Assembly (NCBI GenBank): GCA_902585265.1
Contig: CACICY010000002.1
Location: 41,326 to 105,325 of the forward strand
DNA: 64,000 nucleotides
Reading direction: 5' to 3'
From: an uncultured Pelagibacteraceae bacterium
Lineage (GTDB): Bacteria; Pseudomonadota; Alphaproteobacteria; Pelagibacterales; Pelagibacteraceae
Shown here piece by piece: positions 2,228 to 53,519 of the stretch. Below the pieces are notes generated by a model, which saw only the letters and a program-made list of their open reading frames with translations, was not told the origin of the DNA and did no database searches. The first letter of the stretch is position 1. Every line of letters starts with the position of its first letter. The position numbers were made by a program, and so were the translations under genes.

Positions 2228-4066
2228 GTGGAACGTATAATTACTAAATCATTTGCAAGATTAATGGGCAGAGGTGTCCATAGGGGTTTTATTACTCATG
2301 AGGAATTAAATAAATCTTTAGGGAAAAGAAATTTATCTAACGATAACTTAGAGCAAGCATTTATTCATATTCTTGACGAAAAAATAATATTAGTTGAAAA
2401 AAAAGCTGACTATAAAGTATTGCGAAAAAAAGAAAACGGCTCGAAAGAAGAAGGTAAGTCAATCGAGAAAAGTGACGACCCCATAAGAATGTATCTAAGA
2501 GAGATGGGCGGAGTTGAACTTCTATCCAGAGAAGGCGAAATTGCTATAGCTAAAAGAATTGAGGCAGGAAAAGATGTGATGCTTAATGCCCTTTCCCAAA
2601 GTCCTATTACAGCTCAACAGTTTTTTGAATGGAATAATAAACTTCAGAATGATGAAATTCTAGTTAGAGAAATAATAGATATAGATACGAATTATATGGA
2701 AGACGAGGATACTGGTCAAAGTGCAAAACAGAAAAAATCTGATGATAGTGGGGGTAGCCAGAATACTGAGGACACATCAGGTAATTCCGAAGATGATGAA
2801 TTTAATCCAACACTTGCTGCAATGGAAACCGAAATAAAACCTAAAGTTTTACAAACAGTTTATAATTTAACTAAAGAATATAACAAACTTATAAAGTATC
2901 AAAAAGAGAAACTTGATTGTGTATTAAATTCCAAACAATTTTCACCCTCAAAAGAAAAAAATTATAAAAAAATAGTTGATGATATTTTAGAAAATATAAA
3001 AACCCTTCAATTGTCTCCTTCAGTATTAGAGGAGCTAGTTCAAAAGCACTATGTTGAAAATCGCAAAGTTATATCATTAGAGGGAAATTTATTAAGGCTC
3101 GCTTTAAATGATAAAATTTCAAGAGATGAATTTATTAAATTTTACGTTGGGAATGAAATAAACCCTAACTTGAAAAATTTCTTAGATACAAATGAGATTT
3201 GGAAGAAGTTTCTTCAGAAACACAAAACAGAATTTAAAAACATTAGAGATAGACTAGTTGAAATAAGTAATAAACTCGGAATTTCTGTGACAGATTACAA
3301 GTTAATGGTTAGCAGAATTCAAAAGGGTGAAAAGGAATCAAGAATAGCAAAAAAAGAAATGGTTGAAGCAAATCTAAGATTAGTAATTTCCATAGCTAAA
3401 AAATATACTAATAGAGGTTTGCAGTTTTTGGATTTAATTCAAGAAGGAAATATAGGATTAATGAAGGCAGTTGATAAATTTGAATACAGAAGAGGATATA
3501 AGTTTTCCACATATGCAACATGGTGGATAAGGCAAGCAATAACAAGATCAATTGCAGATCAGGCTAGAACTATTAGAATCCCAGTACATATGATTGAGAC
3601 AATTAATAAAATTGTAAGAACTCAAAGGTTAATTTTAAGTGAATTTGGTAGAGAGGCCACTCCCGAGGAACTTGCTAAAAAATTAAGAATGCCACTAGAA
3701 AAAGTAAGAAAAGTTTTAAAAATTTCAAAAGAACCTGTGTCATTAGAAAAACCAGTTGGAGATGAAGAAGATAGTAGCTTAGGAGACTTTATAGAGGATA
3801 CAAAAGCACTGGCACCTTTAGAGCAAGCGATTAAATCTAATTTAAGCGAAGCTACTACAAAAATTCTCTCAACCCTTACTCCAAGGGAAGAGAGAGTTTT
3901 AAGAATGAGGTTTGGAGTAGGTATGAATACAGACCACACATTAGAAGAGGTTGGGTTGCAATTCTCAGTAACTAGAGAGAGAATTCGTCAAATAGAGGCA
4001 AAGGCACTAAGAAAATTGAAGCATCCTAGTAGATCTAAACAGCTTAAAAGTTTCTTAGAAAGCTAA
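2228..4066 (+). CDS. rpoD: RNA polymerase sigma factor RpoD (sigma-70), GTG start
   Basis: [11 protein letters not shown], region 2 ([57 protein letters not shown]) and region 4 ([33 protein letters not shown]). Confidence 0.97.
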
Positions 4067-4069
4067 AAA

Positions 4070-4144
4070 GGGCCGTTAGCTCAATAGTAGAGTACTGCAT
4101 TGACATTGCAGGGGTAGTTGGAGCGTAACCAACACGGCCCACCA
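4070..4144 (+). tRNA. tRNA-Val (anticodon GAC) with aberrant T-loop
   Basis: Cloverleaf: GGGCCGT/ACGGCCC acceptor, CTGCA-TTGACAT-TGCAG anticodon arm, GTTGG-AGCGTAA-CCAAC T-arm, encoded ACCA end. Confidence 0.85.
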
Positions 4145-4191: not shown

Positions 4192-4268
4192 GGGCCTGTA
4201 GCTCAGTTGGTTAGAGCAGTACACTCATAATGTATTGGTCCCAGGTTCGAGTCCTGGCGGGCCCACCA
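4192..4268 (+). tRNA. tRNA with CAT anticodon (tRNA-Met elongator or lysidine-type tRNA-Ile2)
   Basis: GGGCCTG...CGGGCCC acceptor, anticodon loop CTCATAA, canonical T-loop GGTTCGAGTCC, encoded CCA. Confidence 0.92.
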
Positions 4269-6496: not shown

Positions 6497-6862
6497 CAAC
6501 AGCCAGATAAAAGACTTATCGCTTTAATTTATTAAGGAGGAAAGTCCGGGCTCTACAAAGACACAGTGCCAGTTAATGGCTGGCGGGGGCGACCCTAGGG
6601 ATAGTGCCACAGAAAATAAACCGCCTTATCAAGGCAAGGGTGAAAAGGTGTGGTAAGAGCACACCGGCTATGTTGGTAACAGCTAGCGCATGGAAAACCC
6701 CACTGGGAGCAAGACTGAGTAGAGATGACACTGTTAGAAATAACAAAAAGCAGTCTTTGGCTAGTCATCAGGGTTAGTTGCTTGAGCCTTAAAGTGATTT
6801 AAGGCCTAGAGAAATGATAAGTTTAAACGACAGAACCCGGCTTATATTTTATCTGGCACTAA
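6497..6862 (+). ncRNA. rnpB: RNase P RNA, bacterial class A
   Basis: Hallmark GAGGAAAGTCCGGGCTC near the 5' side, ACAGAACCCGGCTTAT near the 3' side, terminal complementarity CCAGATAAAA / TTTTATCTGG. Ends approximate. Confidence 0.93.
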
Positions 6863-53372: not shown

Positions 53373-53429
53373 TAATTAATATCCAAGTTATTCAATAGTG
53401 TCAATCAGGTTGTATTTTGAGTCTGTAAC

Positions 53430-53464
53430 TGAATCAAAAGTGAATCAAAACGTGAACATCAAAA
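53430..53464. repeat. Imperfect direct repeats TGAATCAAAA in the umuD/GFA divergent intergenic region
   Basis: TGAATCAAAA at 53430 and 53441 (11-bp period) and TGAACATCAAAA at 53453. Confidence 0.7.
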
Positions 53465-53519
53465 CTATATTTAGTATACTTGTGGATAACTTTAACCATA
53501 AATAGTTCAAATATAAAAA

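Follow-up and report, generated by a model that had tools for sequence, protein, structure and literature searches.

The tRNA-Val(GAC) gene at positions 4070-4144 of the window (the whole 64,000-nucleotide stretch of Pelagibacteraceae DNA analyzed here) very probably encodes a working tRNA whose elbow was rebuilt by compensatory evolution, with A18-G55 taking the place of the G18-Psi55 contact and, in some of the tRNAs concerned, with a rebuilt T-loop platform as well. This reading is drawn from comparison of sequences. On balance, we also lean toward the wider view that SAR11 has a second stable tRNA-elbow architecture, A18-G55 plus the rebuilt platform. Several essential tRNAs would carry it next to others with the canonical elbow, mostly in lineages without the Psi55 and T54 enzymes, and it would amount to a near-universal tertiary contact rewritten by nature in two steps. 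The gene, its parts and its neighbors are as follows.

2228-4066, + strand: rpoD-like open reading frame (RNA polymerase sigma factor), from the list of open reading frames; conserved upstream of the Val gene
4070-4144, + strand: tRNA-Val(GAC) gene with encoded CCA (ARAGORN; Rfam RF00005, 53.6 bits; minimum-energy cloverleaf)
4083-4089, + strand: remodelled D-loop AATAGTA, read as A14 A15 T16 A18 G19 T20 A21 (sequence; conserved in relatives)
4102-4104, + strand: anticodon GAC (ARAGORN)
4112-4116, + strand: variable loop GGGTA, with A48 opposite A15 (sequence)
4122-4128, + strand: remodelled T-loop AGCGTAA, read as A54 G55 C56 G57 T58 A59 A60 (sequence; conserved while stems vary)
4192-4268, + strand: tRNA-Met(CAT) with a canonical elbow (ARAGORN; Rfam, 72.7 bits)

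The arms of the tRNA-Val(GAC) gene read GGGCCGT TA GCTC AATAGTA GAGT A CTGCA TTGACAT TGCAG GGGTA GTTGG AGCGTAA CCAAC ACGGCCC A CCA. The gene scored 53.6 bits with the Rfam tRNA family model (RF00005), whose gathering cut-off is 29, and the GAC anticodon, A73 and encoded CCA were all present. The cloverleaf was also the minimum-energy fold (-28.6 kcal/mol, z -3.29), and it was more stable than all 200 shuffles. The sequence, ARAGORN, Rfam and the fold thus bore out the claim of the first-pass annotation that all stems pair and that CCA is encoded, and direct reading of the sequence confirmed the unusual loops and the A/A at positions 15/48 that it had described on an intact cloverleaf. Compared with the canonical T-loop TTCRANY, the gene has AGCGTAA, and in its D-loop G18 is replaced by A with G19 kept. 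The annotation had held that G18-Psi55 and T54-A58 could not be canonical and that G19-C56 could remain; A18/G55 and A54/T58 were read at the first two, and G19-C56 was retained. The A15/A48 combination is not a Levitt pair of the standard kind, and G55 and A54 occupy the places of the U55 and U54 expected of a TruB and TrmFO substrate. The stop codon of the rpoD-like open reading frame lies 3 bases before the gene, and the tRNA-Met(CAT) gene is syntenic with the Val gene in many relatives.

All 75 bases of the window tRNA-Val recur unchanged in 20 further genomes of the genus. A search of 397 genomes of the family detected the remodelled elbow on nearly every one among the matches listed, usually in one copy per genome. 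Distant versions (L036, L040-L043, L250, L263, and L264) differ in their acceptor, anticodon and T-stems, all of which are paired, while A18, G19, G55 and C56 together with A54/T58/A60 are constant. Sibling genomes carried the same remodelled loops, and identity across dozens of genomes ruled out an assembly error. The complete genome G003 contains one remodelled Val(GAC) and one canonical Val(TAC) gene, so the second, canonical Val(GAC) gene that the annotation had proposed to look for is absent there. Two Val(GAC) genes in one genome were detected only in G158 (L255, L256), where a decayed remodelled copy, which has T in place of C56 and a mismatch in the T-stem, accompanies a canonical gene on another contig. 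The G158 pair is what would be expected if the remodelled gene were decaying or unexpressed and a canonical Val tRNA did the work, and the canonical-elbow Val(TAC) could in principle read all valine codons. We consider this explanation very unlikely given the 75/75 identity over many species, the compensated stems and the constant loops, and it is largely refuted by the occurrence of the same elbow on the only, and indispensable, tRNA-His of G003. Pseudogene status was rejected because dozens of genomes share the identical gene and because of that tRNA-His.

A generic A18/G55 pattern, which is restricted to tRNAs whose D-arm is of the GCTC/GAGC type, matched true tRNAs only in Pelagibacteraceae among 387 genomes of the class. 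The phenomenon proved wider than the Val gene of the first-pass annotation, extending to His, Phe and others: the pattern also matched the tRNA-Phe of G003 and G017 and the tRNA-His of genus g9. A match in G480 (L082) was rejected, as ARAGORN finds no tRNA there. Phage carriage of the remodelled tRNA was not detected in 50,697 phage records. The tRNA-His gene of G003 (L085:2124-2194; Rfam, 50.6 bits) lies directly upstream of the histidyl-tRNA synthetase (HisRS) gene, has the full elbow (AATAGTA/AGCGTAA) and is the only tRNA-His found in that complete genome. ARAGORN reports no tRNA-His in G003 and Rfam recovers the gene, which means that automatic annotation can report an essential tRNA as missing. 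The sole tRNA-Phe of G003 has the loops AGGAGTA/TGCGAAT, a half form in which A18/G55 occurs with T54/A58. Since the sole tRNA-His and the sole tRNA-Phe carry the elbow, essential tRNAs use it and it must support translation. Remodelled elbows apparently occur on the only tRNA-His and the only tRNA-Phe genes of many strains. Conservation, together with the full elbow on the sole tRNA-His and the half form on the sole tRNA-Phe of G003, is an indirect indication that the tRNA-Val gene may be expressed, processed and charged as well.

Two further features of the histidine system were observed. The remodelled tRNA-His of the L085 type, which ARAGORN misses, has T31 opposite T39, a mismatch at the base of the anticodon loop. 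The HisRS of g1 (L085) and those of g9, g12 and g5 (L083, L061, and L060) apparently belong to two clearly different sequence types, and these adjoin differently built tRNA-His genes.

Co-variation of the elbow positions was evaluated with a cloverleaf finder that is blind to positions 18 and 55, which yielded 118 distinct tRNA sequences from 269 loci. Positions 18/55 were G/T in 91 of these and A/G in the other 27; no sequence was discordant, and 19/56 was G/C in all 118. This perfect co-variation strongly supported the earlier proposal that the elbow was remodelled by co-ordinated changes in the two loops. Positions 54/58 were T/A in 99 sequences, A/T in 18 and G/G in one, and they switched as a block with position 60 (T/A/Y in 99, A/T/A in 18, and G/G/A in one). 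The A/T/A and G/G/A blocks occurred only with G55, and a rebuilt 54/58/60 was never found without A18/G55. Half-remodelled intermediates, with A18/G55 alone and T54/A58 intact, were represented by tRNA-Phe, the g9 tRNA-His and the Val genes of L257 and L258. The existence of half forms, and the absence of the reverse combination among these sequences, suggests that 18/55 changed first and the T-loop platform second. In the remodelled sequences, 15/48 was A15/A48 in 14 and A15/C48 in five. Positions 16/59 of the full form were T16/A59 in 15 distinct sequences and A16/T59 in three with no other combination, which is only suggestive of a new Watson-Crick contact between the D- and T-loops (U16/A59 or A16/U59). 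Loops remained constant while stems changed with compensation.

In the mechanism that we propose, G18 and U/Psi55 were replaced jointly by A18 and G55, as their co-variation shows, and the exposed G19-C56 pair was kept. The 18-55 hydrogen bond would persist with its donor and acceptor exchanged, although both the chemistry and the geometry are inferred here. A second step, which the co-variation shows only on top of the first, converted U54/A58/Y60 to A54/U58/A60 or, rarely, to G54/G58/A60. The T-loop would then probably be closed by a purine-purine 54-60 pair or by a different 54-58 pair, and the 15-48 pair of the full form would be non-standard. The exposed G19-C56 pair serves as a stacking surface for RNase P RNA and the ribosomal L1 stalk (PMC4810234), and the RNase P RNA encoded in the window fits the standard class A model over its full length (Rfam).

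A loose elbow with no contact between the D- and T-loops, as in type II mitochondrial tRNAs, would account for loss of the Levitt pair and of T54-A58 in the full form. It is a highly improbable description of these tRNAs, as it leaves little place for the strict co-variation between the D- and T-loops, for the standard RNase P RNA, or for G19-C56 in 118 of 118 sequences, a pair that a loose elbow does not need. The two loops could also form a short antiparallel helix (19-56 plus 20-55) of the kind seen in suppressor tRNAs selected in the laboratory, which would dispense with the 18-55 contact. Of 25 seven-base loops, 22 have T and two have C at position 20, either of which could pair with G55. 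T20, however, is equally frequent among canonical loops, L253 has A20, and the helix leaves A18 in 27 of 27 sequences unexplained, which makes this arrangement improbable in our judgment. Zagryadskaya, Kotlova and Steinberg reportedly selected suppressor tRNAs from D/T-loop libraries and found that alternative loop combinations can support translation (work cited in PMC7912444 and PMC4191394). A G54-G58 combination, as in the His variant GGCAGAA, is said to be among those recovered. The suppressor tRNAs were products of laboratory selection, whereas the SAR11 genes occur in nature and are conserved throughout their lineages.

Canonical and remodelled Val alleles alternate at the same rpoD-linked locus, as judged from the conserved upstream gene and a tree. 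Beside rpoD, G110, G106, G301 and G269 have canonical alleles, which are interspersed with the remodelled alleles of other genomes. The G301 allele (L259) is identical to the window tRNA in the acceptor arm, anticodon arm and D-stem and differs from it by a canonical D-loop, position 48 and a canonical T-arm. Recombination between strains may be part of the cause of this switching. The co-variation could also reflect common descent of one D/T-arm cassette with a single origin, spread afterwards through gene conversion and recombination. Allele switching at this locus fits such a history, as do the AATAGTA and AGCGTAA loops shared by Val and His and the T-arm GTAGG AGCGTAA CCTAC common to some Val and His genes. 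A single cassette is harder to reconcile with the half forms of Phe and the g9 His, which differ in T-loop (TGCGAAT, TGCGATT, and TGCAACT) and occur on different D-loops and T-stems, with two further half forms in Val, and with the His variant GGCAGAA. We regard a single origin as possible although rather doubtful, and a spreading cassette would still have to work.

Four canonical-elbow Val(GAC) genes (L074, L075, L259, and L260) have odd 15/48 pairs (C15/A48, T15/G48, and T15/A48). A 56-base 3' fragment of tRNA-Val(GAC) in G051 (L079; G051:C1:397210-397265) is identical to the gene and distant from it, and it resembles a relic attachment site left by an integrated element.

The HisRS sequences of G003 and G017 were used as queries to recover 80 named Pelagibacterales loci with upstream tRNA-Phe and tRNA-His genes. 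Among these, Phe was A18/G55 in 54 and G18/U55 in 20 (74 of 74 parsed sequences concordant), and His was A18/G55 in 25 and G18/U55 in 54 (79 of 79 concordant). The tRNA-His of L165, which the finder missed, is canonical at both 18 and 55. On the HisRS tree, the Phe trait and the His trait each change at least four times. Supported branches provided three independent pairs per tRNA, all of them concordant, a number too small for a sign test to reach significance. The repeated switches may in part represent allele replacement rather than fresh mutation, as SAR11 recombines.

The TruB family (PF01509, TruB_N) was detected in 29 of 147 genomes of the family, all of them in g5, g7, g9 and g12, and in 14 of 14 control genomes. 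TruB, the Psi55 synthase, was undetectable in all genomes of g1, the genus of the window, including several that consist of one contig and are 99-100% complete, and also in most sister genera. TrmFO, the usual U54 enzyme in alphaproteobacteria (PMC7912444), did not exceed the cut-off in any of 17 genomes, and its weak matches were open reading frames of 622-640 residues, the size of MnmG. These results suggest that U55 and U54 are probably unmodified in the genus, even in canonical tRNAs. The first-pass annotation had suggested that the elbow escapes TrmA/TruB modification. This is only partly apt, since with TruB undetectable in the genus and TrmFO undetectable in the tested genomes there is probably little modification left for tRNA-Val to escape, and the annotation's interpretation as a whole is partly supported. 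Loss of modification may have relaxed constraint on U54 and U55. Genus g12 has both TruB and the remodelled Val, and g9 has both TruB and an A18/G55 His, which shows that TruB loss was not a requirement and weakens it as the sole cause.

According to reviews, conservation of G18-Psi55, G19-C56 and U54-A58 is universal or high, and the exceptions are eukaryotic initiator tRNA, tRNA-Pyl and mitochondrial tRNAs (PMC7912444, PMC7609411, PMC4810234). The SAR11 tRNAs share with the canonical bacterial elbow the cloverleaf, G19-C56, U8, A14, a 7-base T-loop and G53-C61, and they differ from it by A18/G55 and, in the full form, by A54/U58/A60 and the lack of a standard 15-48 pair. Eukaryotic initiator tRNA-Met is likewise a working tRNA with A54 (PMC7912444), but it pairs A54 with A58, whereas the SAR11 tRNAs are bacterial elongators with G55, U58 and A18. 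tRNA-Pyl, too, occurs in nature and lacks the G18 G19 and TPsiC motifs (PMC7609411). In contrast to the window tRNA, in which the 7-base D-loop, the 5-pair anticodon stem and G19-C56 are all normal, tRNA-Pyl has a small D-loop, a long anticodon stem and no G19-C56. Metazoan mitochondrial type II tRNAs depart from the GG/TPsiC consensus in reduced genomes too, but they lose the contact (PMC7609411), whereas in SAR11 the partners change together and G19-C56 stays. The text of a SAR11 tRNA-signature study does not contain the term "T-loop"; that study excluded sequences with unusual secondary structures, and its passages on the SAR11 tRNA-His and HisRS traits leave the elbow undescribed (PMC3937112). 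Searches of openly accessible papers revealed no earlier report of A18/G55 in bacterial tRNAs.

The GG/TPsiC elbow is regarded as invariant in bacteria and is relied on by gene finders, modification enzymes, RNase P and the ribosome. In SAR11, among the most abundant bacteria of the ocean, the elbow appears to have been rewritten in step on both sides, and canonical, half and full forms coexist. These tRNAs provide a natural test of which contacts translation needs, in which G19-C56 stays and the rest can move, and of the consequences of losing Psi55 and T54 modification.

Other unusual tRNA sequences were also observed. The tRNA-Thr(GGT) of a single genome (L157; G110:C4:81110-81250) has a D-loop with ..ATGTTA.. 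and the T-loop TTAGATT, so that G19 and C56 are both altered, to T19 and A56, as if compensating. In G003, L126 (G003:C1:838387-838444) is a truncated copy of the tRNA-Met(CAT) type that lacks the 3' end and is possibly an integration relic. Elsewhere in the window, a full-length class A RNase P RNA was located at 6503-6860 (289 bits) and a SAR11_0636 sRNA at 53408-53497 (111.9 bits).
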